From contig CP046866.1 of NCBI GenBank assembly GCA_009789175.1, positions 558,001 through 622,000 on the forward strand: DNA of 64,000 bases, written 5' to 3'. Of the stretch, positions 336 through 48,617 are shown in pieces. The notes beneath the pieces are model-generated. The model had not been told where the DNA came from. It did not search any database and was given only the letters and a program-made list of their open reading frames with translations. This DNA is from Salinibaculum litoreum (GTDB lineage Archaea; Halobacteriota; Halobacteria; Halobacteriales; Haloarculaceae). The stretch's first letter is position 1. Every line of letters begins with the position of its first letter. The position numbers were made by a program, and so were the translations under genes.

Positions 336-398
336 CTGGCAGCCAATGTGGCCCCACACTACGGGGCAGCCAGCAAACGGACACAGGAGCAAGAACCT

Positions 399-2666
399 AT
401 GACTGATGGACCAATCCTCGGTATCGACCTTGGGACGACCAACAGCGTGATGACCGTGTATCAGGAGGACGGCCCGAAAGTCGTCCTGAACTCCCGACGT
501 GACCGCATTACGCCGTCAGTCGTCACCTATACTGATTCAGAGACGCTTATCGGGCAGCCAGCGGATAACGTTCGGAAGCGGTATCCCGGCAAGACACTGG
601 AGCAGGTGAAAAAAGATATCGGCAAGGACTGGGAAGACGACCGCGACAAGCGAGACAAGTACACGATAGATGGGAAGATGTACTCGCCGGTCGATGTCTC
701 TGAAGAGATTCTGCGGAAGCTCAAACGCGATGCTGAAGACTTCTTCCAGGACAGCATCTCACGGTGTATCATCACGGTCCCCGCAGGGTGGGGAAACGCA
801 GAGCGTGAGGCAACGAAGATTGCCGCCGAGCGGGCTGGGTTCGAAGTCGAACGTCTACTGCATGAACCGAGTGCGGCGGCGATTGCATATGGTATCGACA
901 TCTACGAGGAGCAGACACTGTTCGTCTACGATCTCGGTGGCGGAACCTTCGACGCGTCTGTCCTCGAGGTGGGCGGTGGTATCTGTGAGGCCAACGCGAC
1001 CGGAACAGCTGCTGTCGGCGGCAGCGACTGTGACGAGGCGCTCTACGAATTTGCGCTGGACGCCTTCGAGGAGGACCACGGCACGCGCCCCGCCGATGAT
1101 GACCACGAAGCCCGACAGCGGCTCCTCGAAGAGGTCCGCAAGAAGAAGCACGAGCTGTCGAACCGCGAGGAAGTGACCATCCGCATCCCGTTCTTCTGCG
1201 AAGACCAACAGGGTGAGCCACAGGACCTCGAAGTCGATGTGGACCGCGAGGAGTTCACAGGCCTCATCAGCGGCATCCTCTCGAAAACCCGGGAGAAGAC
1301 ACAGCAGGTCGTCGACGCCTCGGATTACGACTACCGTGATATCGACTCCGTCCTGTTAATTGGTGGCGCGACGCAAATGCCACAGGTTGATGACATCATC
1401 GACGGGATGTTCGAGTCGCCAGTCCAGGGTAACATCAACCCGGACGAAACGGTAGCACTCGGGGCAGGTATCCAAGCCGGCATCGAGAGCGGCTCGGTCA
1501 AGGATATGATGGTCATCGACGTGACGCCACTCTCATTCGGTATCAAGGTTAAAGGCGGACTGTTCGAGCGCGTCATCGAGCGGTCGACGCGCATCCCCAC
1601 GGAAGTGACACAGGACTTTACGACATCGGAGGACAACCAACGGCGTATCAGCGTCGAAGTCTATCAGGGCGAGCGCGAGATAGCCGACCACAATCACCAC
1701 GTCGGTGGGTTCGTCCTTAGCGGTATCCCGCCGGCTCCGGCTGGCGTCCCCAATATCAAGGTGCGGTTTAGCATCGACGACGACGGCATCATCTCTGTCG
1801 AAGCAGTGGACACCGGCACTGGAAACAGTCAGCACCTGGAAATCTCGGAAGGGCTCTCTCTGACCGGGCGGGAAATCGAACGACAGAAAGCAGAAGCCCG
1901 GCGACTCTCCGAGTACGACCAGAAGTATCGCCGGCACACGACCACCGTCAACCAAGCCGAGGAAGCCATCTCGCGTGCCCAGACGCTCATCAACAAGAAC
2001 AACGACATCATCTCCCCTGAGCTGGAGAACAAAATCCAGACGCACATCCAGACAGTCAGAGAGTCGCTGGACGACATCGATACCGTGACGCCACAATCCT
2101 TCGACGGGTCGATAGACGATGAAGCGCTATCGGCAGTCGAAGAAATGACCGAGGAACTGTCGCAGGTCCTCCAGGATGTTGGCGTCTCCGTCTATCTGTC
2201 CGAAGCGGAGGACACACTCGAGTACGCCCCCGGTGACGACCTAGCTGACGAGATTGGTGACCATGACGGTGGGATTAACCGACCCAACCTTGACGAAATC
2301 GTCACCGACAGCGATGTGGACACCACCGACGACCGCCCACCCGAGGACGCAAGCAATGGTGAGGCAGTCGGCAACGGCGCGGCCAGCGCCGGACAATCGC
2401 CGACGGACGCCCAGACTGCGACGAGCGAGGCGACCAGCGAGTGTGCTGATGATAACGGTGGGGTGTTCAGCGGCCTTAGCTCTGGAGACGACACTGCCCG
2501 AGAGGCGGACAATACCAAGGAGGGCAGTGGTGGCACCGAGACGGTCTCGTTCGGTGCGCCCGACGACGACAACGACACTGACGACCCCGACGGCAGCCAG
2601 CCCATCAGCATGACCCGGGGTGGACAGGATGTCGACGAGAACGACGACCCGACGGAGGCACAGTAG
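399..2666 (+). CDS. dnaK: Hsp70/DnaK-family chaperone with acidic C-terminal extension
   Basis: An ATP-dependent chaperone of the DnaK family, 755 residues against about 630 for ordinary haloarchaeal DnaK. Visible hallmarks are the N-terminal phosphate loop GIDLGTTNS (residues 7-15), the second phosphate motif DLGGGTFD, LIGGAT in the nucleotide-binding domain, VTPLSFGIK at the substrate-domain boundary (about 375), and a helical lid. The last 130 or so residues are extra: highly acidic, Ser/Thr/Gly-rich and probably disordered. The ATG at 399 was preferred over an upstream GTG (348) because the family begins just before GIDLGTT. No dnaJ or grpE is adjacent. The neighbours are membrane proteins and a presenilin-like protease, so this is likely a specialised paralogue rather than the housekeeping copy. 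Confidence 0.93.
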   Translation: MTDGPILGIDLGTTNSVMTVYQEDGPKVVLNSRRDRITPSVVTYTDSETLIGQPADNVRKRYPGKTLEQVKKDIGKDWEDDRDKRDKYTIDGKMYSPVDVSEEILRKLKRDAEDFFQDSISRCIITVPAGWGNAEREATKIAAERAGFEVERLLHEPSAAAIAYGIDIYEEQTLFVYDLGGGTFDASVLEVGGGICEANATGTAAVGGSDCDEALYEFALDAFEEDHGTRPADDDHEARQRLLEEVRKKKHELSNREEVTIRIPFFCEDQQGEPQDLEVDVDREEFTGLISGILSKTREKTQQVVDASDYDYRDIDSVLLIGGATQMPQVDDIIDGMFESPVQGNINPDETVALGAGIQAGIESGSVKDMMVIDVTPLSFGIKVKGGLFERVIERSTRIPTEVTQDFTTSEDNQRRISVEVYQGEREIADHNHHVGGFVLSGIPPAPAGVPNIKVRFSIDDDGIISVEAVDTGTGNSQHLEISEGLSLTGREIERQKAEARRLSEYDQKYRRHTTTVNQAEEAISRAQTLINKNNDIISPELENKIQTHIQTVRESLDDIDTVTPQSFDGSIDDEALSAVEEMTEELSQVLQDVGVSVYLSEAEDTLEYAPGDDLADEIGDHDGGINRPNLDEIVTDSDVDTTDDRPPEDASNGEAVGNGAASAGQSPTDAQTATSEATSECADDNGGVFSGLSSGDDTAREADNTKEGSGGTETVSFGAPDDDNDTDDPDGSQPISMTRGGQDVDENDDPTEAQ

Positions 2667-4082: not shown

Positions 4083-4181
4083 CCGTGGACTGCACCTTAG
4101 CGTCGACCACAGTGCCAGCATCCAGTGGCGCGACCTCAGGCTCGATTGCACGCTTTTGCATGTGGCCCTTGATTTTCGACT

Positions 4182-4203
4182 CATCACCGAAAAAATAGGT
4201 GGA
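4182..4203 (+). promoter_or_regulatory. leader motif CATCACC-N9-GGTGGA (copy 1 of 5)
   Basis: CACC (4185-4188) can pair with GGTG (4198-4201) across an A-rich loop. The GGTGGA arm lies 4 bases before the ATG at 4208, where a ribosome-binding site is expected. The same arrangement recurs before genes at 5403, 9653, 11665 and 13806. In this copy the base before GGTGG is A rather than G, so the pairing is four base pairs. Confidence 0.5.
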
Positions 4204-4207
4204 CAGT

Positions 4208-5266
4208 ATGTCAACACACGCTCCAAGTCATCCACGACAACCAGCGGCGACTGAGCCAACACCGACGGTGACCAGTCCCGCAAACGCGTTGATAGACGGG
4301 TTCAGCGCCGAGTTCAGTGAGAACATCTACGGTCGATTCGGTGGGTACGAGTACGACGACTTCGGAACCGACATGTGCTGGGTTACCGAGGGCGACATCG
4401 AAGGCTTTCTCGAAGACCACGTCTCCTGGAACCTGTCTCTCGACTGGGTACAAGAAACGGCAGCGACGCACACCCCGCCAGCGGGCATCTCGGTCGCCCA
4501 TGGGGACACAATCGCCACACGTCTAGATACCATCAAGAATGCACTTACCGCCGTCACAACCGACCCCGAGAAAGACACTATCAGCATCAGGCAGACGCGT
4601 GGTGACGCGCCACTGCTCGTTATGGGTCCTTGCGGGACCGTCGCCATCGGCGAGCACGAACTCCTCAGCCTGCCGTTCACGCCCGAGCAGGCCGACCACT
4701 TCCCCCACTACGACATTGCAGTCGATGGACAGTCGATAGCAGTCCCCGAATACAAGGCAGAGTATCGCAGCGGGCTCGCAACTATCTTGACAGCACTTGC
4801 CACCAACGACGACGCACCAACCCCCGTCTCTCACGTCGGGCTCGAAAACCTCACCATGAGAGAGCGGACGAACAGCCATGCCAGGAAGACCGCCCATGTC
4901 TTCGAGACCGCAGAGGGGACAACAGTGTACGTCCCGGGGGTAGCCTGCAACGAAGTTCACACCTTGACCCCTTCGGTGACCGACCTCCCGGCGTTCGACG
5001 CCCAGAGTGACGGCACCGTCACCGAAGGCCAGCGGAGCCCACCGTCACAGGATACTATCCAGACAGCTATCCCAGAGGATGCCGTCATCTGTGGCTTCAA
5101 CCAGTACAACGAGGATGTCGAAGGCAAAAACGAAACGAGGAAAGCTCCAACCGTTGAGGCCGGGGTCATAGAGACCATCGAAGAGCTGCCCTTCCACGAC
5201 GCTGTCTACGTCAACTACTGCACCATCGACATCAAGCGCTATCGGCCACAGAACAACTGGTGGTAA
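4208..5266 (+). CDS. hypothetical acidic protein
   Basis: Unrecognised protein of about 352 residues. A Pro/Thr-rich N-terminus (about 1-30) precedes a soluble, acidic, mixed alpha/beta body without membrane segments or an obvious catalytic signature. A stretch with HARKTAHVFE (about residues 225-235) and a C-terminus ending in a Trp pair are conspicuous. The ATG at 4208 is preferred over a GTG at 4199 because the leader motif GGTGGA sits directly upstream with normal spacing. It is the first gene after the chaperone/protease cluster and begins the series of genes with the shared leader hairpin. Confidence 0.6.
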   Translation: MSTHAPSHPRQPAATEPTPTVTSPANALIDGFSAEFSENIYGRFGGYEYDDFGTDMCWVTEGDIEGFLEDHVSWNLSLDWVQETAATHTPPAGISVAHGDTIATRLDTIKNALTAVTTDPEKDTISIRQTRGDAPLLVMGPCGTVAIGEHELLSLPFTPEQADHFPHYDIAVDGQSIAVPEYKAEYRSGLATILTALATNDDAPTPVSHVGLENLTMRERTNSHARKTAHVFETAEGTTVYVPGVACNEVHTLTPSVTDLPAFDAQSDGTVTEGQRSPPSQDTIQTAIPEDAVICGFNQYNEDVEGKNETRKAPTVEAGVIETIEELPFHDAVYVNYCTIDIKRYRPQNNWW

Positions 5267-5320
5267 CGCCCAGCGGCGATAGCCCCACAGCAACAGTATA
5301 TCGACAGGAAATTATCAGTT

Positions 5321-5342
5321 CATCACCCTGAAAGATGGGTGA
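5321..5342 (+). promoter_or_regulatory. leader motif TCACCC-N8-GGGTGA (copy 2 of 5)
   Basis: A perfect 6-bp inverted repeat, TCACCC (5323-5328) and GGGTGA (5337-5342), with an 8-base loop. Unlike the other copies it lies 60 bases before the PCNA-like gene at 5403, and the ATG inside it (5335) opens a 23-codon frame that ends across that gene's start codon. Confidence 0.5.
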
Positions 5343-5406
5343 GGTCACTCCCAGTAGTTGGGTTCTGACCGGTTCCGCTTCCTACACGCCAGTTCACAAC
5401 TTATGA
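5335..5406 (+). CDS. possible 23-codon leader ORF overlapping the PCNA-like start
   Basis: An ATG inside leader-motif copy 2 opens a frame encoding MGEVTPSSWVLTGSASYTPV plus three residues. It stops at TGA 5404-5406, which overlaps the ATG at 5403 in an ATGA junction. The overlap is the arrangement used for translational coupling, and the ATG sits in the loop-distal arm of the hairpin. A frame of this length can arise by chance, so this is a candidate only. Confidence 0.25.
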   Translation: MGEVTPSSWVLTGSASYTPVHNL

Positions 5407-6716
5407 GTTCGAACACAGCAGCTGCAACCGCAGACGAATCGCCCACGACCACCACCGCACCCTGGACGGCAGACGCAGTCATGGACATCTTCGGCATCCA
5501 GCGCAAGCCAGCCGAAGCCATTATCAACCACATCGACGACTGGTCAGAGTTCGAGTCCGCTATCGAATCCGACTCCGACTGGACGCTTCTGGATGGCGTC
5601 GGCCCTGCAACCGCCGACAGCCTCGACGAGACGGCAGGCGAACTCAATGCCTTCCCGCCGGCCCGCGGCGACGACCAAGACGAGGCCCAGGAGGCCGAGG
5701 ACGGAGAGGTCTCCGACGACGACGAGGACGAAGCCAGCGATGAGCCCGATGTGGCCCCCGAAGACAGTGACATGAACGACGACTCCGACGGTGACGAGGA
5801 GGACGACGAGATGGGCGAGGCCGAAGCCGAACCCGACACCGACGCGGACCCCGACGAAGCAGCAGAGGACGCTGACGACGACGCCACGACAGACGATGGT
5901 GACGGTGCAGAGAGCGACCGCCTGCCGACCTTCGAGAAGAAGCTGTCGAGTTTCGCAGCAGTGGTCGAAGCCGGGACACTCAAAGACATTGTCGGGCAAT
6001 ACACACCTATCGCAGACGAAGCCCGCATCCACCTGAGCGAAGGTGGCGTCCGAATCCTCCTCGTGGACCCCGCAAATGTCGTCATGCGCGACGGCGACTA
6101 CCCGGCCTCGCTGTTCGAATCCTACAACACAAGCGAGGGCCGTATCGGGATAGACCTGAACGACCTCCGCGATGTCATCAAGATGGCTGGCAGCGACGAC
6201 CTCATCCATCTCGAACTGGAGGCAGGCAAGCTGAACATCAGCATGGACGGACTGGAGTACACGCTCGCACTCATCGACCCCGAGTCCATCCGCGAGGAAC
6301 CGGAGCTGCCGGACCTCGAGCTGCCCGCGCGGTTCACCATCAAGCAGCGAGAGCTCAAGCGGGCAAACAAGGCCGCAGATATGGTTTCTGACCACGTCGC
6401 AGTCGAGGCCCGAAATCCGGCCGACGGCGAGAGAGCCATCATCGTCAAGGCAGACGGCGACACCGACGATGTCAAGCTTACCTGGACCGAAGACAAAGAC
6501 GACATCGAAGACGTCATGCTCCCCGCAGCGGGCGAAGCCTTCGACTCGCTGTTCTCGCTGGACTACATGAAAGACATCGTCCGCAACATCAGCGCCGACA
6601 CAGACATCGAAGTGGAACTCGGCGACGAGTTCCCCATCTGGCTCCGCCACAACATCGACGACGATGGCGAGACGGTCGTGAACACGATGCTGGCCCCGCG
6701 GATTCAATCGAACTGA
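5403..6716 (+). CDS. PCNA-like sliding clamp with N-terminal helix-hairpin-helix region
   Basis: About 437 residues, against about 247 for a normal archaeal PCNA. Residues about 20-85 form a small helical region with LLDGVGPATADSL, a helix-hairpin-helix (HhH) type DNA-binding signature. Residues about 85-185 are an Asp/Glu-rich linker. The remainder is a full PCNA fold: a KDIVGQYTPIADEARIHL start, LVDPANVVM, SLFSLDYMKDIV near the end and a C-terminal LAPRI. Clamps encircle DNA and tether polymerases and nucleases through PIP boxes. The HhH and long flexible linker would let this clamp touch DNA or another partner separately. A second protein of the same architecture is encoded at 53401. ATG 5403 is preferred to an upstream GTG because it follows the leader ORF. 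Confidence 0.9.
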   Translation: MSSNTAAATADESPTTTTAPWTADAVMDIFGIQRKPAEAIINHIDDWSEFESAIESDSDWTLLDGVGPATADSLDETAGELNAFPPARGDDQDEAQEAEDGEVSDDDEDEASDEPDVAPEDSDMNDDSDGDEEDDEMGEAEAEPDTDADPDEAAEDADDDATTDDGDGAESDRLPTFEKKLSSFAAVVEAGTLKDIVGQYTPIADEARIHLSEGGVRILLVDPANVVMRDGDYPASLFESYNTSEGRIGIDLNDLRDVIKMAGSDDLIHLELEAGKLNISMDGLEYTLALIDPESIREEPELPDLELPARFTIKQRELKRANKAADMVSDHVAVEARNPADGERAIIVKADGDTDDVKLTWTEDKDDIEDVMLPAAGEAFDSLFSLDYMKDIVRNISADTDIEVELGDEFPIWLRHNIDDDGETVVNTMLAPRIQSN

Positions 6717-6814
6717 CGGGCAACAGCGGTAGCGCCACGCGGCGCATTCACACGGCGACGTTCCCACCGGGGCCACACGGCAGACTCCGCCCGTAACAGC
6801 CGCCCGCCGTACCG

Positions 6815-7567
6815 ATGCCAATGACTTCATGTACTACCTATAGACACGGCGACCCACCACCGACAGCACAGGCTCCACGACCACCGCGGACACCGACGAA
6901 ACTGACGACAGCGGCCTGTCAGACGCTCACAACGCTTCAGACCAACCACGCGAAAAACTACGCTGTCGTCCCACTGGCTGTCGCCAGTTCCAGAGACACG
7001 ACAGCTACGCTGTTCGAGGTAGCTGGTGGCGAGGCACAGGCCGCTCGTGACGGCGCACAGTTGCTTGGCTTACTCAATGGGACTGCCCTCACCCCCGCTG
7101 GCCGAGCACTCCGTGACGCCGTCATCGACGCCCACGGATGCATCGAAAGCGGGCTCACCGTCTTCGAGGACCTCTACGGGCGGCAGACCAGACTCATCGA
7201 CGCCTGTCCAGCCGTCGCCAAGCCACTCTGGGAGGGCATCACCACGCACCCAGCGCTGGCCGCACTCCTCGAGATTCTCAGCAGCCATGGCCCGGTGCAG
7301 TTACCAGCACTCTACAGTGCGTGCCGCTACAGCCAAGTGGGCGTCCTCCAAGCCGCGCTGATCGCACCGTCCACGCCACCGCCGGCAGACGCTGGGGACC
7401 CGACGGAGACAGCCTTCTACGCCAGCGGGACCATCTCACACCTGAAGTCCGTCCTGTATCACGCCGGCGTCCTGACCGAACGGGGCAAGACGACGGACAG
7501 TCACGACCCGTGCAGTGACATGTGGGCGCTCGAACCAGCGTTTCAGAGGTGGTTCGATGGACGATAA
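6815..7567 (+). CDS. hypothetical protein, possible winged-helix fold
   Basis: Unrecognised 250-residue protein. After a Pro/Thr-rich N-terminus (about 1-35), the body alternates helices and short strands. The stretches LLGLLNGTALTPAGRALRDAV (about 82-102) and SHLKSVLYHAGVLTE (about 207-221) look like paired winged-helix DNA-binding units of the type common in haloarchaeal plasmid proteins. There is no catalytic motif. Its 3' end overlaps the start of the TGT/DpdA-like gene by 11 bases, indicating co-translation and perhaps a joint role in DNA modification or recognition. Confidence 0.55.
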   Translation: MPMTSCTTYRHGDPPPTAQAPRPPRTPTKLTTAACQTLTTLQTNHAKNYAVVPLAVASSRDTTATLFEVAGGEAQAARDGAQLLGLLNGTALTPAGRALRDAVIDAHGCIESGLTVFEDLYGRQTRLIDACPAVAKPLWEGITTHPALAALLEILSSHGPVQLPALYSACRYSQVGVLQAALIAPSTPPPADAGDPTETAFYASGTISHLKSVLYHAGVLTERGKTTDSHDPCSDMWALEPAFQRWFDGR

Positions 7568-8534
7568 AACGCTGCTCGAACTCCTCATCAGGACACAGCG
7601 TATCGGGGAGTTCCTAATGGCAGAAACCGACACGTCCAAAGCTGAAAAGCGATTGCGGCGGCTCATCGGCGCGAACAACGGTGGTGTGTGTATCTGGCTG
7701 GCCGGGCGATTCTCCCGCTATCAGTATCCACGACGGCTCGCCAACGCCAAGCAAGTGGACCAGGACATCCGCGACTCAGCGCTGGAACTTATCGTCGATT
7801 CTGCTATCGGAGACGAAGACGTCGGCAACGAGTTCACCCTCAAGAAGGCTCGCCGGTTCAACGCTGATTACGTCCTCCCAGCCGATACAGTACACGACGG
7901 TGACGCAACGCACGCTGCGAACGTGGACATGGTCGAACAGGCAAGCGAGCCGCGAGACCCCACTGTCATCCCAATCCTTCAGCCACCCTACGACGAGCAA
8001 TACACCGCCTACAGCGATTTCTACGACCAGTTCGCTGTCATCGCCCTTGGTGGTATCCGCAATTGCGACCCAGACACGCAAATCGCACATCTAGAGCAGG
8101 CCCGTGACCTCTTGCCGGGAAAGACACGACATGCCCTCGGTGTCGGCACGAAGCTAAAAGTACTCCACCGACTACGGCAGGACCCCGAGCTCGTTGACTG
8201 GGTCGATACCTCAACGCCAGAGCGCACCATCACGAACGGCGAGGTCCGTGACGCCGAATGGGACTGTCGGGACGAGCTAGTGTCTGGGTTCACACTCCCC
8301 AAAGGAGAAGAGAGTACCACCGTGCGAGCACGGTTCGCCTACAGCATGGCCGTAATGATGAACTATCTGTTGTCTCCATATGCTGACGGTGCTGTCTTTG
8401 ACCGGTTCGACGACCAGCAGACTATCGCAGACGTTAAAGAGAGAACACCCACGTCACTATCGCTGAAGATGGGCACAGAAAACAGCGATACGGCCACTAC
8501 GACACAGCAGACGCTAGGCGACGCCGCTGGCTAG
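7557..8534 (+). CDS. TGT/DpdA-like base-exchange enzyme (7-deazaguanine transglycosylase fold)
   Basis: About 325 residues resembling tRNA-guanine transglycosylases and their DNA-acting relatives (DpdA), which swap guanine for a 7-deazaguanine base. Signature-like stretches appear in family order: an N-terminal strand LIVDSAIGDEDVGNE; NADYVLPADTVHDGDAT (Asp110 as candidate catalytic or base-binding residue); IPILQ; VIALGGIRN (165-168); RHALGVGT (191-198); and WVDTSTPE (215-222). The zinc-binding C-terminus and the PUA domain of tRNA-acting archaeal enzymes are absent, which favours the DpdA-like or phage-type branch. The tail reads QQTLGD, resembling a PIP box but without the aromatic residue. 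The ATG at 7557 overlaps the preceding gene. The GNAT/Mom-like gene 1.5 kb downstream makes a DNA-modification role plausible. Confidence 0.62.
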   Translation: MDDKTLLELLIRTQRIGEFLMAETDTSKAEKRLRRLIGANNGGVCIWLAGRFSRYQYPRRLANAKQVDQDIRDSALELIVDSAIGDEDVGNEFTLKKARRFNADYVLPADTVHDGDATHAANVDMVEQASEPRDPTVIPILQPPYDEQYTAYSDFYDQFAVIALGGIRNCDPDTQIAHLEQARDLLPGKTRHALGVGTKLKVLHRLRQDPELVDWVDTSTPERTITNGEVRDAEWDCRDELVSGFTLPKGEESTTVRARFAYSMAVMMNYLLSPYADGAVFDRFDDQQTIADVKERTPTSLSLKMGTENSDTATTTQQTLGDAAG

Positions 8535-8669
8535 TCGCCGAGCAGCAGAGGACACCAAGAGGAGAAGGGGCAGCTATCCATAGATTCGTCACTAACTTAC
8601 GAGACACGTGTGGATGGTTCTGTTCTCTTGATAACTATTATTGCAGATACAGTCGAATTCCGGGGTGAT

Positions 8670-8759
8670 ATGTCACAGAGAACTACCGTCTGCAGCAGCG
8701 GAATCAAGCGGATAGAACAGCTCGAGACAATTGTCGGGGAGGTCATCACTCCTCGATGA
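8670..8759 (+). CDS. 29-residue small ORF coupled to the next gene
   Basis: A short frame beginning MSQRTTVCSSGIKRIEQLET and ending ITPR, whose TGA overlaps the ATG of the next gene in an ATGA junction. A GGGGTGA sequence just upstream is a good ribosome-binding site. The helix-like IKRIEQLETIVGEV resembles the short peptide IERTIREDINVL encoded at the start of the degraded second copy at 9082, which supports it being a real part of a two-gene unit. Confidence 0.45.
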   Translation: MSQRTTVCSSGIKRIEQLETIVGEVITPR

Positions 8760-9085
8760 CTCCCGAAGAAGACCGCCGAGTCTTCGCAGCGTGGCTCGCA
8801 TCCCTGACGGTCGTTATCCCGTGGGTGACTCGCTCACTGGGTGACACAGAGTTCGGTTTCGGAGAGACAGTCGAACTCGGCCGTCAGGCCGGCTGGACCC
8901 ACGATGTGGAGTACCACATCTGTGGGATGTGGGAAGGAGACTACGATGCCGAGAGAGTCCTCATTGCTGGCGTTGAGACTGGCCTGTCATGGGCTGTCTC
9001 GCCCAACTACATTCGTCAGCGACAAGCACGCTCGGCGGATGACATCGATGGCAACTCCAGTACTGCACAGGAGGTGGCCCCATGA
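8756..9085 (+). CDS. small membrane-associated hypothetical protein
   Basis: Unrecognised 109-residue protein. A hydrophobic helix WLASLTVVIPWVTRSLG (residues about 13-29) precedes a soluble region with HDVEYHICGMWEGDY. It is translationally coupled to the 29-residue ORF upstream. The next 400 bases contain a recognisable relative in broken reading frames (SLAGVVIPWLTRFIGYTDCG, then DEHYRVCGIYHPDG), so this gene is one of a tandem duplicated pair. The ATG overlaps the previous stop codon, and the 3' end overlaps the next short frame by 4 bases. No function can be assigned. Confidence 0.55.
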   Translation: MTPEEDRRVFAAWLASLTVVIPWVTRSLGDTEFGFGETVELGRQAGWTHDVEYHICGMWEGDYDAERVLIAGVETGLSWAVSPNYIRQRQARSADDIDGNSSTAQEVAP

Positions 9086-9546
9086 CTGCCATCGAGCGGA
9101 CCATCCGCGAGGATATCAATGTCTTGTTCTCGTAGGGGTGGCATCGCTGGCGGGTGTCGTCATTCCATGGCTCACAAGGTTCATCGGCTACACCGACTGT
9201 GGTGTCAACCAAAACTATCGACCTCTGTCGTGAGTTCGGTCTTGGCCCAGATGAACACTACCGCGTGTGTGGTATCTACCACCCAGACGGCCCGTTCAAA
9301 CCATCTTGCTTGCTGGAGCAGACGCTGGTCGGACCCAAGTCGTCGGCCCTGACAGTCTCGGAACTGCTCAGGATTCAACATGGCGACTTGCGAGAGTTTG
9401 TAGCAGCAAGCGAGACGATAGAGATTTTTCAACTTTCAACGACGAATACTGTGTCATCGAAGGATCAAGAATCTCTATCCGCGACAACTACTCCTCTGCA
9501 AAGCAATTACTCTAGTAAAGACCTCAATCACACCTCCTCTAGATGA
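9082..9546 (+). pseudogene. frameshifted tandem paralogue of the 8756 gene
   Basis: The ATG at 9082 opens a frame (MTAIERTIREDINVLFS) that stops at 9135. The sequence relating it to the 8756 protein then continues in a different frame (VASLAGVVIPWLTRFIGYTDCG, about 9140-9205). It returns to the first frame as TIDLCREFGLGPDEHYRVCG and continues to 9546. Two compensating frame changes (near 9120-9140 and 9200-9215) break an otherwise collinear duplicate. The 3' part lacks similarity to the first copy. A sequencing error cannot be excluded, but two nearby shifts favour decay. The downstream 130-residue frame could still be translated alone. Confidence 0.5.
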
Positions 9547-9622
9547 AACGGACACAGCCCACCAGCACTCCCTGCCACAGCGACTCGCTGCTCACGCCTG
9601 TGTACCAGCGATTATCATCACC

Positions 9623-9644
9623 CATCACCCCAAATATGGGTGGA
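9623..9644 (+). promoter_or_regulatory. leader motif CATCACCCC-AAAT-ATGGGTGGA (copy 3 of 5)
   Basis: CACCC (9626-9630) can pair with GGGTG (9638-9642) across a 7-base A/T-rich loop. The GGTGGA arm is 8 bases before the ATG at 9653. An out-of-frame ATG inside the motif (9636) opens a 15-codon frame. Confidence 0.5.
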
Positions 9645-9652
9645 TTGATACA

Positions 9653-10030
9653 ATGTCCTCTGAAGACAATACAGACCCAATAGACGAAACGCTCGCCGAA
9701 GTGCTCGGCATCCTCCGCGCCGGTGTCGATGAGTCTTACGGCGACCGAATCGAACGCAGTTCTACTGTCGTCGAAATACTCCACGACGAGGAGTTGCCCG
9801 GAAGTAGCGTGGTCACCTACCCCGGCGTCAGCCAACTCATCTGGCGGTATCAGCACCATGACGCCGAGACGGTCCGCAGGCGATTCGAAAACGAGCTCAA
9901 CCGGGCGGACGACCCCGATGTGACGGTCCAAGACATTGTCGACGCATTGGCCGTCGTTGCCGAGCGCCTGTCCGATGCCGAGACCGAGTGCGAGACGAGT
10001 CCGTCCAACAGTCACTCGATGAGCGCATGA
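9653..10030 (+). CDS. small acidic helical hypothetical protein
   Basis: Unrecognised 125-residue, strongly acidic, mostly helical protein without cysteines in a metal pattern, membrane segments or catalytic motifs. Its middle portion, VVEILHDEELPGSSVVTYPGVSQLIWRY, could form a small winged-helix-like unit. It carries the shared leader hairpin, which fixes the start. Its TGA overlaps the ATG of the GNAT/Mom-like gene (ATGA at 10027-10030), so the two are likely made together, and this protein may regulate or assist that enzyme. Confidence 0.6.
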   Translation: MSSEDNTDPIDETLAEVLGILRAGVDESYGDRIERSSTVVEILHDEELPGSSVVTYPGVSQLIWRYQHHDAETVRRRFENELNRADDPDVTVQDIVDALAVVAERLSDAETECETSPSNSHSMSA

Positions 10031-10824
10031 GCGCGGAGACACACCAGAAGGCTGACACACAGGCCAGCCAGCAGTTCCATCACGTCACTGGCAGCGATGG
10101 GTGTGACTGCCCGGTCCACCGCAGCGATGGTCACCCTACGAGCGTGCCACTGGGGTGGCAATTTGCAGACGAGGTATGCGTCAGGCCGATTGCAGCGGCG
10201 GAAGCAGCGGCCATCTACAACAAACACCACGCCTACGTGGATGACATCCCAGATGCAAACATCACCCATCATGGGATTTTCTTTCGTGGCGACCTTCTCG
10301 GTGCTATCACATGGCGAACGGGGCTGTGCCAGCATCGCAAACTCCGCTGGGATAGTGACGGCAACCTCCTCGCTCGCAGAGCCGCGAACTTGGCCTGGAG
10401 TGACCTGCCGGATAGCTACCACAGCCGAGCAGCAGACCTTATCGATTGCCCCACAGATGATGAGATAGCCAAGGAGCAAGTCGTCTCGGGTGGCCAATTT
10501 GTCAGGGCTTCGCGCATCTGTATCGCCATCGACGACTTCCCCAACCTCGCCAGTTGCGGGCTCGCCAAATCACAGGCCCGGTTCGTCCGCAAGCACTGCC
10601 AAGGCAGCGACTACGACTATCTAGTCACGTTCGTCCGCTGTGACTATCGCGGGTCAATGATAGCCGCGCTCCGAGGCCGTGGGTGGCGGTGTACCGGCTT
10701 TTCGACCCCAAGTACCCCTGGGAATCGAGAAATGCAAGACATCTACGACGACTGCAAATGGCGGTGGATTTGTCCTGTCGAGACAGTCACCGAGCAGTTG
10801 ACGATGGCCGACATCACCGATTGA
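10027..10824 (+). CDS. GNAT-fold protein related to phage Mom/XF1762-type enzymes (candidate)
   Basis: A 265-residue protein with a pattern typical of GNAT-like enzymes of the Mom/XF1762 group, which in phages act in DNA base modification. The elements, in order, are IYNKHHAYVDD (about 61-71), HHGIFFRGDLLGAITW (strands 1-2 of the fold), a long insertion, SRICIAIDDFPNLASCGLAKSQA (about 161-183, the strand and following helix), YLVTFVRCDYRGSMIAALRGRGW (about 199-221) and a C-terminal strand. An N-terminal CDCPVH may bind metal. The start overlaps the preceding gene. The TGT/DpdA-like gene nearby suggests a linked DNA-modification function. An ordinary acetyltransferase role is the main alternative. 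Confidence 0.5.
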   Translation: MSAETHQKADTQASQQFHHVTGSDGCDCPVHRSDGHPTSVPLGWQFADEVCVRPIAAAEAAAIYNKHHAYVDDIPDANITHHGIFFRGDLLGAITWRTGLCQHRKLRWDSDGNLLARRAANLAWSDLPDSYHSRAADLIDCPTDDEIAKEQVVSGGQFVRASRICIAIDDFPNLASCGLAKSQARFVRKHCQGSDYDYLVTFVRCDYRGSMIAALRGRGWRCTGFSTPSTPGNREMQDIYDDCKWRWICPVETVTEQLTMADITD

Positions 10825-10880
10825 ACGGCCGCAAACAGGACTAGCAACGAACCGATACGAGTTGACGACACAACAGACAC

Positions 10881-11591
10881 ATGTCACACCCCGACTTTCC
10901 AGTTCGAATCGACGACAGCGAGGACCGCTATCCGATTATCGACCGGCGAGACGCGCCAGAGGAACTCTTCAAACGACACCACCGGTACAAGCTGTCTCAC
11001 CAAGCCATCCCGAAAACTGTACCGCTGTACATCCGCGAACACCACCCGGACGCCAACGAGTACCTACGATTCCGGGCCTTCTTCGAGCAACTCCTGTGGG
11101 CAGCCAACTCAGCCGCCCGCTTTTACAGCTGGGAGAGTCCCTCCGAGTACGTCGAATGTTGGAGTCCAGGACTCGGTGTGCGAAAAGAAGCGAATATGTC
11201 CCCACCACGTGACTGGGAGGCCCACGTCGCGCTCGTCAAGGCCGTCGCCCTTGATGACGAGAACAGTTATCTCAGCTACCCAAGTTGGTCGTTCCATACA
11301 GAGAGCACAGAGTTCTTTGAGGCGATGCGAGACCTCGTGCAGTCGTTCGATAAATCGCTCACGGGCATCGGCGTACCCCCAGAGTACGAGAAACAGCGAC
11401 CCAGTTGGGAGCGGTGCGAATATTTCACAGGGCAGTTCTACCCGCAGACCGAAGAGCAATTCCACGCCGCGAAAGACTGCATCAACGACTGGGTTGACCC
11501 GCTCGCCGACGCGACCGTGCCAGCGGAGGCCCCACCGCTCCCGCCCAGGGCAGAGAACACAGGCAACGACTCACCCAAGGTCGATGGATAA
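10881..11591 (+). CDS. hypothetical protein
   Basis: Unrecognised 236-residue soluble protein. It is rich in aromatic residues (for example YLRFRAFFEQLLWAANSAARFYSW, about residues 55-78), mainly helical, and has a Pro/Ala-rich acidic tail. No nucleotide-binding, metal-binding or membrane motif is visible. It follows the GNAT/Mom-like gene by 56 bases on the same strand and precedes the Cas4-like nuclease, so it may belong to the same DNA-processing set, but the sequence itself gives no function. Confidence 0.55.
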   Translation: MSHPDFPVRIDDSEDRYPIIDRRDAPEELFKRHHRYKLSHQAIPKTVPLYIREHHPDANEYLRFRAFFEQLLWAANSAARFYSWESPSEYVECWSPGLGVRKEANMSPPRDWEAHVALVKAVALDDENSYLSYPSWSFHTESTEFFEAMRDLVQSFDKSLTGIGVPPEYEKQRPSWERCEYFTGQFYPQTEEQFHAAKDCINDWVDPLADATVPAEAPPLPPRAENTGNDSPKVDG

Positions 11592-11637
11592 GTCACCAGC
11601 AATGCGAGCAGTGGTATGGGACTTATGATTCCCACCT

Positions 11638-11660
11638 CATCGCCCGGAAATATGGGTGGA
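11638..11660 (+). promoter_or_regulatory. leader motif CATCGCCC-GGAAAT-ATGGGTGGA (copy 4 of 5)
   Basis: GCCC (11642-11645) faces GGGT, with a 7-8 base loop, and GGTGGA ends 4 bases before the ATG at 11665, as in copy 1. The internal ATG (11652) is followed after two codons by TAG, a minimal upstream ORF. Confidence 0.5.
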
Positions 11661-11664
11661 TAGT

Positions 11665-12492
11665 ATGACAGACTCTTCAGGCCCAGATATGCCCAGCATC
11701 CTCGAAAGTTCAGTGGATGTCTGGCACAACGCAGACAGTGACAGCCACGTCGAACCCGACCTCGAAACGTTCCACCCATCGCAGTTGGCGAGCGAGTGCA
11801 AACGCAACCCGCTCGTCAGCAAGCTCGGACTCGACGACAACAGCGACGCCGCAGGCTACTTCCTCCGGGGGGTGCTCATCCATGAGTTCTTCGAAGAGTG
11901 GGTCGGTGACGGACCCGTCGCCGACGAACTCGATGTCGACCTCAGCAACATCGAATTCGAAAAAGAACTGGAGGCCGACTTCGACGACATCCTCCTGACG
12001 GGTCGGTGTGACATCATCGACACCGAGAACGACATCGTATACGACATCAAAGTCCGCGGGGGGTGGCACAAGTTTAACCCGCCGGTGGACCGGCACCTCG
12101 ACCAGCTCCATGCCTACATGGGGCTCGCAGGAGCCAACGAAGGCGTCGTCATCTACGTCAACGCGAAGGACCCGGCAGACATTCGCACGTGGCCACCACA
12201 GAGTGACGGTCGGGACACCTTCGAGTTCGACCCGGAGCGATTCATGGGCCTCCTCGAGGACGCCCGCGAAATTCGGCAGGCGCTCAGTAACACTGGAATG
12301 CCCACGTCGAAGCACGAGATTCCGTACGACAAGTGTGGCTGCTTCTCCTGCCAGCAGGAAGACCTATCGTTCCCCGCCGACGATGCAGATATCGTGACCA
12401 AGCCACTCCCAGCGCGACACGACAACGCCGGCACCAGTGGTGAGAGCAGTGGCGATGGCGGCTCATCTAGCAATGGCTCCGCACCAGCATAG
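11665..12492 (+). CDS. Cas4-like PD-(D/E)XK nuclease with Fe-S cluster cysteines
   Basis: About 275 residues with the full Cas4/RecB-nuclease pattern: Cys45 (SECKRN), catalytic His73 (LIHEFFEEW), Asp116 (GRCDII), Asp127-Ile-Lys129 (YDIKV), the QxxxY motif at Gln147-Tyr151, and a C-terminal cysteine trio Cys224, Cys226, Cys229. With Cys45 these can hold a 4Fe-4S cluster. Such enzymes trim single-stranded DNA ends. There is no CRISPR array or other cas gene in the window, so this is a stand-alone Cas4-type exonuclease as found on haloarchaeal viruses and plasmids. The last 40 residues are a Gly/Ser-rich tail. The leader motif sets the ATG at 11665 rather than a TTG-type start at 11656. Confidence 0.85.
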   Translation: MTDSSGPDMPSILESSVDVWHNADSDSHVEPDLETFHPSQLASECKRNPLVSKLGLDDNSDAAGYFLRGVLIHEFFEEWVGDGPVADELDVDLSNIEFEKELEADFDDILLTGRCDIIDTENDIVYDIKVRGGWHKFNPPVDRHLDQLHAYMGLAGANEGVVIYVNAKDPADIRTWPPQSDGRDTFEFDPERFMGLLEDAREIRQALSNTGMPTSKHEIPYDKCGCFSCQQEDLSFPADDADIVTKPLPARHDNAGTSGESSGDGGSSSNGSAPA

Positions 12493-12518
12493 CACAGCCA
12501 GAACGCAGGGTCCTACCA

Positions 12519-13124
12519 ATGGCAGCAAGTGACGACAGCCGACCCAGTGTTGCACAAGCGTACCCCTGCCCGGACTGTGGCTCCGTCTACACGGTTCACC
12601 AACCGGGCTGTGAGTTCGACGGGACCGACCGCAGTTCCATCGAACGGGCCTACATCGACATCATCGCACCGTTGAGTGTGACAACGATTACGAAGCAGTC
12701 ACTGCAAGCTAAAGAAGTCCCAGAGTGGACTGACCTCCACGAGCGGGTCTTCGCGTATCTTACGGGCACCCAGCAGGTCATCGTTGAGGCTGACGGCACT
12801 GTTCGACTCGCCACCGAAGACGAGTCGGTCGCCCCGGACGAAGAGCCCCTGATAACCATCTATCGACAGGGGACCTATCCCGGCTGTCACGATAACGGCA
12901 TCTTCGCGCTCGTAGCCTACTTCTCGAATATGGGGCTATCGTGGCAGGAGACAAAATCCCAGATGCTAGACTGGTTCAACCGGACTGGCACATGGGACCG
13001 CGGTGGCTTCGAGGAAGACAGCCCCGAAGAAGTCATCGAACAGAAACGCCACGTCTGGGCAGAAGGCTACGGGTGGCAGCGGATGGGCAACCAGGCGAAA
13101 TCAGAAATCAAGCGCCGGAGCTGA
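12519..13124 (+). CDS. zinc-ribbon hypothetical protein
   Basis: A 201-residue protein. The N-terminus carries CPDCGSVYTVHQPGCEF (residues about 17-33), a likely zinc-binding CxxC...H..C site. The C-terminal part (about 110-200) has GTYPGCHDNGIFALVAYFSNMGLSWQET, followed by helices and acidic turns, somewhat like the helical domain found after primase-polymerase cores, although no catalytic core is present. It starts 27 bases after the Cas4-like gene and is probably co-transcribed. A nucleic-acid-binding accessory role is the most that can be suggested. Confidence 0.6.
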   Translation: MAASDDSRPSVAQAYPCPDCGSVYTVHQPGCEFDGTDRSSIERAYIDIIAPLSVTTITKQSLQAKEVPEWTDLHERVFAYLTGTQQVIVEADGTVRLATEDESVAPDEEPLITIYRQGTYPGCHDNGIFALVAYFSNMGLSWQETKSQMLDWFNRTGTWDRGGFEEDSPEEVIEQKRHVWAEGYGWQRMGNQAKSEIKRRS

Positions 13125-13173
13125 CCAAGTGGCCCTCGAGTAGGCACGCCAAGGTCAGACAGTCCGTGACGAA

Positions 13174-13674
13174 CTACGCCTCAAACGGCGAATAGGCCGC
13201 TGTCGGAGCGGTATACTGACAACCATCGCCGCCGTCATAAGCAGTACACCCCCAGAAGAACCCGTTAGTGCCTGACCGATGAACGAGGACAGACTCACAC
13301 TCGGGGCACAGCGGCGGTGACTGTGTCCACGACAGAAAGGTCAGCATCGTCGACCGGAGATTCTGTGCCCACCCAGTCGTGCGGTACAGTCGCTGTGTCG
13401 GTGCAGCCCGGTCCCCCGACGCAACATCGATAAACCGGAGCTTCATCGAATCGTTACCCTTCGGGCGGGCCTGCCCAGACTCAACGTCGACGGTCGTGTA
13501 CCAATCGACGTGAATATCACCAGGGTACGAGAGTTCGCCCGCATGGTAAACCGCTCGGTAGACGTATTGTGTAGCGTGGTCCAACTGCGGGTCGATGCGG
13601 GCAAACCCGAATGACCACTCCTCAAGCGCCATGCAAATGTCCTCGTGTGTGATGTCCGGGCTAGACTGCGGCAT
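13174..13674 (-). CDS. protein with topoisomerase-type C4 zinc finger
   Basis: Minus-strand protein of about 166 residues (an upstream start at 13710 would add 12). The N-terminal part is an unrecognised alpha/beta region containing VDWYTTVDVESGQARPKG. The C-terminal 40 residues contain CPECESVLVHRSGTNGFFWG followed by C and a later GC pair, the four-cysteine zinc finger that topoisomerase I and restriction-related proteins use on single-stranded DNA. It is the only minus-strand gene in the first 16 kb. It faces the preceding gene tail to tail and shares a divergent promoter region with the gene at 13806. Confidence 0.65.
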   Translation of the reverse strand: MPQSSPDITHEDICMALEEWSFGFARIDPQLDHATQYVYRAVYHAGELSYPGDIHVDWYTTVDVESGQARPKGNDSMKLRFIDVASGDRAAPTQRLYRTTGWAQNLRSTMLTFLSWTQSPPLCPECESVLVHRSGTNGFFWGCTAYDGGDGCQYTAPTAAYSPFEA

Positions 13675-13770
13675 CTGTTGCAGTGCGCGTACAGTCAACC
13701 AGACAACCAACCTACATTAACGTTGGGCAGGAGCGGTCCTCGCATAGCCGTGAATGCCCTGAATTGGACC

Positions 13771-13794
13771 CCCATCTCTGACAAGATGGGTGGA
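13771..13794 (+). promoter_or_regulatory. leader motif CCCATCT-N6-AGATGGG-TGGA (copy 5 of 5)
   Basis: A perfect 7-bp inverted repeat (13771-13777 with 13784-13790) and a 6-base loop. GGTGGA ends 11 bases before the ATG at 13806. The stem differs in sequence from the other copies yet stays paired, which argues that the hairpin itself is conserved. Confidence 0.55.
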
Positions 13795-37890: not shown

Positions 37891-38014
37891 AATATCTTAG
37901 GGTGCCAAGTCGGGAGGAACCCCCTACACATAAGAACTAATGCCTAGAACTCATCCAGTGCACTCGCCAATCATGAATGATCGAATATAAATCACATTCA
38001 AAAATGGATTCTAT

Positions 38015-38653
38015 ATGTCCTCTTCCCTGAGCCCTTTTGCGATGTGGTCGCTCGTTACAGTTGCTGGGGATGCTACCCAGGATTACGCAAAGGCAATCCT
38101 GTCATTGGATCTTAGAACCTTCATCAGAGGCGAATACCTTGCCGCGCACGGGTTCGGGTATTCGATCCTTGCTTTCTACCATTTGCTTAAGGCCCTATGG
38201 AGATACGGGTCAGCAGCCATGCGCGGTCACGAGAAGTCTGGATTACGGGTGATCGCGAAATTGTTGAGCAATTTTATACTCTCTATTATTGCTCTCGTTG
38301 CGAATTTCGTCATTCTGGTAGGTCCAGCGTATCTTTTGTGGGAACTGTTCATGGCAGCCGATCCAGTTGTCCTACCTCACGCCCTTGTCTATGGATTCCG
38401 GACTCTAGTTGACATTATGACTAATATCATCTCCTTTCTTCTTATTATCCTGATAATTTGGTTCTTCGTTGAGGAGTTTACTTCAGGGAAAAACCAGGTA
38501 TTTGAGCTAGATGACCTCCAACAGAATCACATTGCGAAACAGACTGAGTCAACTAATCGCCGGAAATCTAGGCGGGATGACCGTACGATTGAGGAAGATC
38601 AGCTCCAATCCAAACTTACTGAAATCGAAAATCAATTAAAGAATAATCGATGA
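38015..38653 (+). CDS. membrane protein M1 with FFVEEFTSG motif and coiled-coil tail
   Basis: 212 residues. Three to four hydrophobic segments (about 84-115, 125-140 and 128-152) end in LLIILIIWFFVEEFTSGKNQ, followed by a charged cytoplasmic tail with a short coiled coil (QLQSKLTEIENQLKNN). The motif FFVEEFTSG[KR]N and the terminal coil also occur in the convergent gene at 39803, so the two are related. The gene is AT-richer than its left-hand neighbours, as if acquired separately. It is divergent from the TRIP13/HORMA operon and overlaps the next membrane gene by 4 bases. The family is unknown to me. Confidence 0.65.
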   Translation: MSSSLSPFAMWSLVTVAGDATQDYAKAILSLDLRTFIRGEYLAAHGFGYSILAFYHLLKALWRYGSAAMRGHEKSGLRVIAKLLSNFILSIIALVANFVILVGPAYLLWELFMAADPVVLPHALVYGFRTLVDIMTNIISFLLIILIIWFFVEEFTSGKNQVFELDDLQQNHIAKQTESTNRRKSRRDDRTIEEDQLQSKLTEIENQLKNNR

Positions 38654-39012
38654 ACGAAGTACATTTCGTCTGGTTGCAAACACTGGTCGACGAATTCTTG
38701 GATATGCCTGGACCTTTTCAGATGCTTAACCCAGAAATCCTATTGATGTTAGGAATTGGGGCAATTGGGACGGCAGTCGGTCTACTCGCGATCTCCGTAA
38801 TGAACGCTCGAATGCCCGGTGATAACATGAATATGCAGCCGCGTATGCGATATCTGTTCGCACTATCATTTGGTGGAACTGGAATCGGTGGCATTCGATA
38901 TTCCTCTTTAATCGCGGATACCTACGGATATCTTTCATTTGCTCTGTTACTGTTGCTGCCGGTTGGTGTCTCTATTCTTATCATCAAAGAACTTGTGAGG
39001 GCGGATATATGA
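38650..39012 (+). CDS. small membrane protein M2
   Basis: 120 residues with three hydrophobic helices (about 27-48, 62-78 and 90-110). An acidic/aromatic N-terminus is followed by a loop rich in Met, Asn and Gly (GDNMNMQPRMRYLFALSFGG). Its start and stop overlap both neighbours by 4 bases (ATGA), so M1, M2 and M3 are translated as one unit. It may be a channel or pilin-like subunit. No family is recognised. Confidence 0.6.
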   Translation: MNEVHFVWLQTLVDEFLDMPGPFQMLNPEILLMLGIGAIGTAVGLLAISVMNARMPGDNMNMQPRMRYLFALSFGGTGIGGIRYSSLIADTYGYLSFALLLLLPVGVSILIIKELVRADI

Positions 39013-39806
39013 TTTCACGACTTATTCTGCAACTTGGCTTTCTAATTGATTCAGTCCCTTTATGGCTTGCTCCCCTCCTTGTCTTGCTTGGAGTTGAATT
39101 CATCCTTATCTGGCATATTGAGCAGAGTATCAACGTCGTTGCCAGTGAAAAACCCAATCAGAAATCTGGTGATAAAATAGCCATACCAACACGAGACTAT
39201 AAATTACTGGTTTCAGGAATGACGTTTGGTATCCTGTTATCAGCCATTGCAGTCATTCAAGAATTTCAGATATCGAATATTTACGCTATCCTCCTCCTAT
39301 TTTGCGGTCGGGCAATTGAGGGTGTTGCAGCAATCCGATTCTACAAGAAAGTATCGCGGTTCATTCGGACGCGTGAGTGGGGTGGGGATTTCCGAGCCAA
39401 GATGAAACATAAACTTACGATGCTTTTCATCGTGGTTGTGGGCTTTTACCTTATAGGGTACGCTATAGTTCACGGACCTTTCCTTCGTTCATTAGGATAT
39501 ACTATTCAGTTTGTCTGGACAATAACAACTCTACTCGTTACCGCTATTGGACTCCAGTGGAAACTTCGACCGGTGCGTGAGAAGTTTGACCGAAAGCTCA
39601 TCTTGGGGGTGATCTTATTCGTCACTGGTGCGGAACTGTTTAATTTCGCCTTCATTGGTCAATTAGTTGCAACGATAGCTGGCTCAATTGGTTATTCGAT
39701 TGGATTTTGGTTCGCTGCTGCTATACTAATCAGAGATCAGCAGGAGCCAGTGGTGATGGGGCTAAAGTACCGTATTCGGGACATCCGTATCTGGCTTCGA
39801 AGTTAA
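39009..39806 (+). CDS. polytopic membrane protein M3
   Basis: 265 residues with seven likely transmembrane helices and short loops. A basic stretch between helices (KKVSRFIRTREWGGDFRAKM, about 115-135) is probably cytoplasmic. No conserved enzyme signature is visible. It is co-translated with M2 through an ATGA overlap. Its stop codon overlaps that of the convergent gene at 39803 within TTAA, so the two operons terminate inside each other. Confidence 0.6.
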   Translation: MISRLILQLGFLIDSVPLWLAPLLVLLGVEFILIWHIEQSINVVASEKPNQKSGDKIAIPTRDYKLLVSGMTFGILLSAIAVIQEFQISNIYAILLLFCGRAIEGVAAIRFYKKVSRFIRTREWGGDFRAKMKHKLTMLFIVVVGFYLIGYAIVHGPFLRSLGYTIQFVWTITTLLVTAIGLQWKLRPVREKFDRKLILGVILFVTGAELFNFAFIGQLVATIAGSIGYSIGFWFAAAILIRDQQEPVVMGLKYRIRDIRIWLRS

Positions 39807-40471
39807 TTATTTTCCTCAAGTTCGGATTTGATCTGTTCCAGCTTTTTGTTAGCTTCGTCGGCGGAGAGATGACGGCTTCGTGTACGGCCTTCCTTTTTTC
39901 TTGTGCTTTTTTGTCTGTTTGAAGTATTAGGGTTGCCGAATACGTTATCTATAGCAGACTCCGTAATCTCCGCTGGTGTCTCTCCGAAATATTCCTTCAA
40001 ATCGATCGGCGGCTCGGTTTCGCTTGATTTGGCATGTGAAGGCCTATGCATATTCATACGCCGACGTTCTGCTTTTTCACCAAAAATTTTGACTATCACT
40101 TTGTTTCGGCCAGAGGTGAATTCTTCGACAAAGAATGCAATTCCTATTAAAGTTAAAATGACCCAAACAGGGGTTAGTAGATCTCGGAGAAGATATAGTA
40201 TTAGACCAGGAATTAATATAATGGAGATGTGCGCTATTGCACTTCCCAGGCCAACTAATGTAAAAAATCCGAGAGTAGAGATATTATAAGATGATTTATT
40301 AGATGAGCGCAGTTTCTGTGAAGAAACTTTTATGCATTGAAAGCCTGCTGAAATAGCGAGAGATAAACCACAAAAGAAGCCACCGATCGTCCATACAAAT
40401 CCCGCTAGTATCTTTTTTCTATTCCATGAGATGGCGCCACCATATAGGTACCTTGCCCCCGAAGTTGCCAT
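39803..40471 (-). CDS. membrane protein M4, paralogous tail to M1
   Basis: About 222 residues from ATG 40471 (the frame is open to 40609). It has three or four hydrophobic segments, then ILTLIGIAFFVEEFTSGRNK, the same motif as M1. It has a longer cytoplasmic region with PPIDLKEYFGETPAEI and a C-terminal coil (ANKKLEQIKSELEEN) matching M1 in position and style. The gene is convergent with M3 and overlaps its stop. M1 and M4 probably form related subunits of one membrane assembly. Confidence 0.6.
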   Translation of the reverse strand: MATSGARYLYGGAISWNRKKILAGFVWTIGGFFCGLSLAISAGFQCIKVSSQKLRSSNKSSYNISTLGFFTLVGLGSAIAHISIILIPGLILYLLRDLLTPVWVILTLIGIAFFVEEFTSGRNKVIVKIFGEKAERRRMNMHRPSHAKSSETEPPIDLKEYFGETPAEITESAIDNVFGNPNTSNRQKSTRKKEGRTRSRHLSADEANKKLEQIKSELEENN

Positions 40472-40653
40472 CAGTATTATCGGGGCGGCTTTTGCTGGTC
40501 TAAATACTCCCACACTGTGTCTATTGTAGTCTTTTGAATAACATATTGTTTGTGCATAAATTCTGTCTGCGCTTTCGATTGTTTGGAGCATGAATAGTTG
40601 ACGCAACATTGTTCTGGTTGATGAAGTGCGAGCATGACCATGACTGAATGATA

Positions 40654-40694
40654 GTTACCCCACAACTGACTTTATCCCGTGGTTGTGGGGTAAC
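40654..40694. repeat. 13-bp inverted repeat GTTACCCCACAAC / GTTGTGGGGTAAC
   Basis: Perfect 13-bp arms (40654-40666 and 40682-40694) are separated by 15 bases, 89 bases past the stop of the 40783 gene. The core GTTACCCCACA recurs three more times upstream of the same gene (42832-42936). It may be a protein-binding site, a terminator, or part of a replication or partition locus. Confidence 0.7.
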
Positions 40695-40782
40695 CACTTT
40701 GTCTCCAACTGACCCGCTAAGATGTTCGGAAAGAGGGGGTTAGAGTTCTAAGTCTCGGAGAGACTTCTTGTGCTACTTGGTT

Positions 40783-42711: not shown

Positions 42712-42831
42712 TGCAATTCATCCAATTGCGCAGTGAGGCTCTAGTCAGCCTCACACTCTACACTGCGTAGCGGAGCATATGTATATCGCCGACTGAGTGG
42801 CTAGTCTCGGTGTTTTCCAGGGAATCCCCAC

Positions 42832-42936
42832 AGTTACCCCACACTCATGTTCTCGTTTCCACAGCGGATCTGTGCCTTCGAACTGACGCTGATGTTACCC
42901 ACAAGAACCTCTCGTTGTCGTACCTGTGGGGTAACT
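42832..42936. repeat. GTTACCCCACA repeat cluster upstream of the 40783 gene
   Basis: AGTTACCCCACA (42832-42843), GTTACCCACA (42894-42903, one C fewer) and the inverted TGTGGGGTAACT (42925-42936) lie 120-225 bases before the start of the OB-fold gene. The outer pair is a perfect 12-bp inverted repeat. With the pair at 40654 they bracket the gene. They resemble iterons or operators. Confidence 0.65.
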
Positions 42937-43017
42937 CTATCCTTGATTAGAACCGAATCCCAGGAAAAATCCATTAATGTGGAACCAGCCACTACGAGAT
43001 GGCAAGAGGCATATTCA

Positions 43018-43173
43018 ATGACTGGCGACGAAGATACTCCTACGAGTTCGCTTGAAGCGTTCCTGGATGGGTCTGGTATCGACCCAGAAACGCTCGGTGA
43101 GCCGCCGCTTCGGAATGGTGAAGATCCGCTGCTTTCACGCGACCGTGTCGAATTCAAGTCTGGCGACGAGTAG
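43018..43173 (+). CDS. 51-residue acidic small protein
   Basis: MTGDEDTPTSSLEAFLDGSG is followed by DPETLGEPPLRNGEDPLLSR and a short charged tail. Composition is typical of small haloarchaeal proteins, and the frame has no start nearby that is better placed. The GTTACCCCACA cluster ends 82 bases upstream, so its promoter may be governed by those sites. No function is known. Confidence 0.45.
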   Translation: MTGDEDTPTSSLEAFLDGSGIDPETLGEPPLRNGEDPLLSRDRVEFKSGDE

Positions 43174-46198: not shown

Positions 46199-46203
46199 CT
46201 CTG

Positions 46204-46701: not shown

Positions 46702-46706
46702 GAGCG

Positions 46707-48605: not shown

Positions 48606-48617
48606 GTGGAATAGAAA

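Follow-up and report, generated by a model that had tools for sequence, protein, structure and literature searches.

The window, that is, the whole 64,000-nucleotide stretch of DNA that was analysed, corresponds to C1:558001-622000 (window position = C1 position - 558000) in a haloarchaeal genome of 3.73 Mb on three contigs. Five genes in the window are headed by a shared sequence motif that recurs along the contig, and the interval that holds the motif is bracketed by a pair of IS copies, each 1383 bp long, identical and inverted, at C1:552039-553421 and C1:709558-710940. The element carrying the motif is one large integrated mobile element of the haloarchaeon. Its motif-bearing portions, at about C1:553-573 kb and 626-709 kb, encode a PCNA-like clamp, a Cas4-like nuclease, Orc1/Cdc6, ParA, DNA methylases, a DpdA-like enzyme and Hsp70, together with a RepH-like replication protein (phrog_17376, 1e-117). 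The protein encoded by the first motif-headed gene (4208) has no convincing relative among 392 genomes, and the motif-headed PCNA at 5403 carries a long acidic N-terminal extension. The Hsp70/DnaK-like gene on this mobile element lies at window 348-2666 (PF00012, 5e-155), window 9988-10824 has a below-threshold match to the Mom family of DNA-modification proteins (PF25680, 3e-4), and the DpdA-like protein, of the 7-deazaguanine DNA modification family, is encoded at C1:707917-709131 near Orc1/Cdc6 and a DNA methyltransferase.

Megablast of the motif-bearing DNA (36 kb tested) against 72,556 plasmids gave no close relative, whereas the motif-free middle belongs to a different plasmid. This segment, at window positions of about 38000-57000 and with IS copies nearby, shares 93-95% DNA identity across 44-49% of its length with Halosimplex, Natrinema and Haloarcula plasmids. 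The resemblance of the middle to other plasmids, set against the lack of close relatives for the motif-bearing parts, gives the region the appearance of two or more replicons fused together. ORFs with the same length as those of the bracketing IS copies were also seen at C1:505602, 513734, 584028, 615143 and 770000, and the motif-free segment encodes another PCNA-like clamp (window 53401-54504), which has a helix-hairpin-helix domain at its N-terminus.

Relaxed whole-genome searches with AAAWATGGGTGGA formed the first pass, and gave a marked pile-up of + strand matches at C1:562-707 kb. An iterated, two-block weight matrix was then run on C1:500-780 kb plus 120 kb of control chromosome (400 kb in total); the fine scan thus covered 400 kb, and the whole genome was covered by pattern. 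The position-weight search returned 26 copies of the form [RATT]–N~7–YCATC(R)C–N3-4–(R)AAWAT–N–GGTGGA, spanning C1:557.0-706.3 kb, with five of them in the window (see table); a weaker site near C1 626690 was excluded. The copies score 19.6-34.7 bits, compared with 15.1 for the best site in control host DNA and 18.2 for the best site in the plasmid records examined. A 22-mer form of the motif matches twice in the window against 0.01 expected from shuffles. CATC, AA, AT and two core Gs are invariant or almost so, and the AAWAT 'loop' is better conserved than the arms that flank it.

Table. Motif copies and motif-headed genes (window positions unless marked C1).
Feature	Position	Strand	Details
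Motif copy, 32.4 bits	4171..4203	+	GATT box 4171-4174; CATCACC..AAAATAGGTGGA 4182-4203; end 4 nt before ATG 4208
Motif copy, 26.9 bits	5310..5343	+	AATT box 5310-5313; CATCACC..AAGATGGGTGAG 5321-5343; ATG 5403 59 nt on
Motif copy, 34.7 bits	9610..9644	+	GATT box 9610-9613; CATCACCCC..AATATGGGTGGA 9623-9644; end 8 nt before ATG 9653
Motif copy, 32.4 bits	11627..11660	+	GATT box 11627-11630; CATCGCC..AATATGGGTGGA 11638-11660; end 4 nt before ATG 11665
Motif copy, 30.3 bits	13762..13794	+	AATT box 13762-13765; CATCTCT..AAGATGGGTGGA 13773-13794; end 11 nt before ATG 13806
Motif-headed gene, orphan protein, 352 aa	4208..5266	+	without Pfam/PHROG match
Motif-headed gene, PCNA-like sliding clamp, 437 aa	5403..6716	+	PF00705 8e-5; phrog_947 9e-21
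Motif-headed gene, uncharacterised protein, 125 aa	9653..10030	+	Pfam/PHROG searches
Motif-headed gene, Cas4-like PD-(D/E)XK nuclease, 275 aa	11665..12492	+	PF12705 1.8e-6; phrog_1706 2.6e-16
Motif-headed gene, uncharacterised protein, 191 aa	13806..14381	+	Pfam/PHROG searches
CATC starts, copies 1-6	C1 557023, 562182, 563321, 567623, 569638, 571773	+	
CATC starts, copies 7-14	C1 626775, 626845, 628003, 629976, 631612, 633598, 636830, 637766	+	
CATC starts, copies 15-22	C1 639805, 640920, 641395, 644121, 650465, 651198, 653438, 658281	+	
CATC starts, copies 23-26	C1 691548, 692099 (TATC), 698914, 706347	+	

A first-pass annotation had described a hairpin leader of the form CATCACC-N-GGGTGGA before the genes at 4208, 5403, 9653, 11665 and 13806. 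A shared element is indeed present at all five, far beyond chance, and its family proves to be about five times larger than the five copies described. Taken literally, the pattern fits only the 9623 copy; the others read CATCACC..TAGGTGGA (4182), CATCACC..GGGTGAG (5321), CATCGCC..GGGTGGA (11638) and CATCTCT..GGGTGGA (13773).

The placement of the copies is highly constrained. All 26 lie on the + strand (p about 3e-8 under free orientation), and in 18 of them an ATG opening at least 90 codons follows 0-13 nt after the end of the motif, as against 4.7% of random positions (p about 1e-18); five abut the ATG directly (0 nt). The 5321-5343 copy is followed by an in-frame TTG at 5358, 14 nt past its end. 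Copies mostly occupy short gaps after co-directional genes and head short co-directional runs, and many motif-less genes closely trail the gene that precedes them.

The motif is also exclusive to the element. CATCRC-N4/5-AAWAT-N-GGTG has 11 exact copies genome-wide, every one on the + strand and inside the element, while in 391 other genomes of the order the same pattern gave scattered single matches, never two. The GGTGGA-ended pattern occurs eight times here and not at all in 145 other genomes of the family. The motif was absent from those plasmids and genomes that carry genes for homologues of the Cas4-like, PCNA or RepH proteins. A search of genome contigs returned only remote RepH relatives, all without the motif. 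In viral contigs, the pattern search gave single chance-like copies only and protein searches found no relatives. Thus, extending the motif search beyond the window, as had been proposed, yielded more copies within the element and none in related plasmids, and no related element in which conservation of the repeats could be tested was found among viral contigs, genome contigs or plasmids. A gapped 4-mer search for analogous arrays in related plasmids was dropped because its power was insufficient even when applied to this element. On sequence grounds, this is a real and large regulon motif that is private to the element; the proposed regulon with a shared cis element is thereby supported and extended.

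The position of an AT-rich box upstream of the core gives an indication of how the motif may work. In 13 of the 26 copies, RATT starts at -30 to -26 relative to the first G of GGTGGA, against a background of 2.2% (p about 3e-15, an optimistic value because the window for the box was picked after the copies had been inspected). When the copies are aligned on this G, AT frequency peaks at 0.81 at -27 and is 0.69 at -25. This spacing equals the haloarchaeal TATA-to-start distance. RATT is missing from the -30 to -26 window in half of the copies and makes a poor TATA box, and upstream of the motif there is no enrichment of canonical AT-rich hexamers (12%, vs 16% at random positions and 49% for host genes); the haloarchaeal consensus TATA is itself merely TTWT plus a WW -10 element (PMC4983044). 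A leaderless promoter with its transcription start at the ATG was rejected, as the AT peak is not aligned at -27 from the ATG.

From these features we infer promoter function, the position of the transcription start and an element-specific factor. The reading to which we give about even credence is that the motif is an element-private, DNA-level transcription signal, either a core promoter or an activator or operator site overlapping a promoter, at about 26 gene starts. A narrower form, which we put forward only tentatively, is that the copies constitute a private class of weak-TATA archaeal promoters, for which the element encodes its own initiation or activator protein, specific for YCATCRC and AAWAT-N-GGTGGA. 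The RATT box would then sit about -28 from the first G of GGTGGA, with YCATC(R)C at about -16 to -10 and AAWAT at -6 to -2. The first transcribed base would be either the purine that follows the invariant T or the first G of GGTGGA. The resulting short-leader mRNAs would begin with about GGUGGA, with translation from an ATG 0-13 nt downstream, and a protein would recognise the weak dyad (CCATC/GGTGG) as part of its site. As the spacing of the AT box would place the start at GGTGGA, the left arm may lie outside the mRNA and be untranscribed. The rarity of 6-19 nt leaders in Haloferax volcanii counts against this promoter reading (PMC4983044).

The closest precedent for such a promoter class is the set of class I repeats of halovirus HF2, which are tested promoters with a TATA box from -26, a start at a conserved G and the highest conservation at -7 to +1 (PMC8707807). 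Both sets of repeats belong to a haloarchaeal mobile element, are unique to it and depend on orientation; both occupy intergenic gaps (of early and middle genes in HF2) and are most strongly conserved around the transcription start, which in the present motif is a proposed one (PMC8707807). An AT box some 26 nt ahead of a conserved G is a further resemblance, though here the box is weak and confined to half of the copies. They differ in that HF2 has seven copies of 56-58 bp, of another sequence, with a clear TATA box (CTTTAAGT) and reporter proof (PMC8707807), whereas the copies of the present motif number about 26, are shorter and have a weak RATT box.

No cognate factor for the motif was found. 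The window encodes a complete TFB (49760-50710), with a zinc ribbon and two cyclin folds, adjoined by an HVO_2833-like HTH regulator (51425-52375). This TFB shares 94-96% identity with TFBs encoded on three unrelated plasmids of haloarchaea, and only 41-51% with those host TFBs that were compared. It sits in the motif-free segment and was set aside as the cognate factor because Halosimplex, Natrinema and Haloarcula plasmids carrying a 94-96% identical TFB lack the motif.

The same DNA-level features can be read in terms of silencing rather than initiation. An element-encoded repressor could bind the asymmetric site as an oriented operator or stoperator within short gaps, and so silence transcription or its elongation. 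The cluster A stoperators, for example those of L5, likewise comprise more than 20 asymmetric, intergenic sites, correlated with the direction of transcription and lying in short spaces of a single element (PMC9283540), and the 26 or so copies here, oriented with transcription in short gaps beside start codons, share each of these properties. Moreover, the general absence of a strong TATA box near the motif fits read-through transcription. L5-type stoperators differ in being 13-bp sites bound by a known repressor (PMC9283540), whereas the present motif is a bipartite core of roughly 23 bp plus an AT box. A pure operator would not be expected to have an AT box at the distance of a TATA box, no gene for a repressor was recognised, and the location of 18 copies within 13 nt of an ATG is tighter than a roadblock needs. 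Overall, we regard this explanation as unlikely.

The interpretation originally offered was that the hairpin masks the ribosome-binding site. More broadly, an RNA-level element, either a 5'-leader hairpin or a protein-binding site, could control the start of translation, and the single orientation and the position directly before start codons would suit it. The consensus is foldable, with a mean fold energy of -5.3 kcal/mol vs -3.1 for column-permuted copies (only 1% of permutations are as good), and its Y and R positions, facing G and U, remain pairable. Against arm-shuffled copies the fold energy is not convincingly better (p = 0.085). Covariation was assessed in two registers and over all column pairs, with arm shuffles and slid controls. 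For the YCATC/GGTGG register the paired share of cells is 90%, vs 89.7% after arm shuffling (251 of 500 shuffles reach the observed value), and right arms dealt randomly among the copies pair equally well (4.5 vs 4.49 of 5 pairs). In the register proposed originally (T-C-R-C/G-T-G-R plus inner pairs), no pair rises above shuffles. Neither register therefore shows compensatory change beyond shuffles, and an RNA hairpin is not supported by this measure.

Stems do form, as had been claimed, yet the predicted folds fall into at least three registers among the copies and one copy is unfolded; the differing stems at 5321 and 13773, described as perfect pairings of different sequences, represent differing registers without covariation. 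As arm-shuffled copies pair equally well and registers differ, the consensus appears only weakly dyadic, with no sign that pairing itself is selected. The right arm is also a poor match to a Shine-Dalgarno (SD) sequence. The anti-SD ATCACCTCCT and the 16S 3' end motif GGATCACCTCCT were both found in the host genome, and the match of the right arm to the anti-SD is merely 0-5 nt; the five copies that touch the ATG are too close for an SD. The upstream ORF proposed to begin in the right arm is ruled out as a conserved feature, as its ATG is present in only 14 of the 26 copies, sometimes in frame with the gene. Rfam gave no match in the window, and haloarchaeal transcripts are mostly leaderless, with structured leaders rare (PMC4983044). 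Hairpin masking of the ribosome-binding site is thus not supported by these sequences, and the broader RNA-level reading seems quite improbable. The shared DNA operator, offered at the time as a fallback, is the better-supported half of that proposal.

A tag adjacent to start codons, of the kind found in cluster K mycobacteriophages, could aid translation through rRNA or an element-encoded factor without any hairpin. The SAS/ESAS repeats of cluster K resemble the motif in being many, asymmetric, in one orientation, a few nt before starts and absent from the host, and ESAS adds an imperfect inverted repeat that, comparably, is without covariation support (PMC3203893). SAS carries AGGAG, which can pair with 16S rRNA (PMC3203893), whereas the motif has the core GGTGGA with no SD core, and an additional AT box upstream. 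This explanation is very unlikely, as GGTGGA pairs poorly with the host anti-SD, and it would leave RATT and CATC, the blocks further upstream, unexplained.

How haloarchaeal plasmids and proviruses are regulated is almost unmapped, and here a single motif defines a regulon that spans the whole element, with about 26 start sites. The finding bears on whether archaeal mobile elements hold a private promoter code or a counterpart of phage stoperators and SAS, and it is a caution against calling a repeated dyad ahead of start codons an RNA hairpin. If the private promoter class is real, the element's entire gene set would be switched on together.
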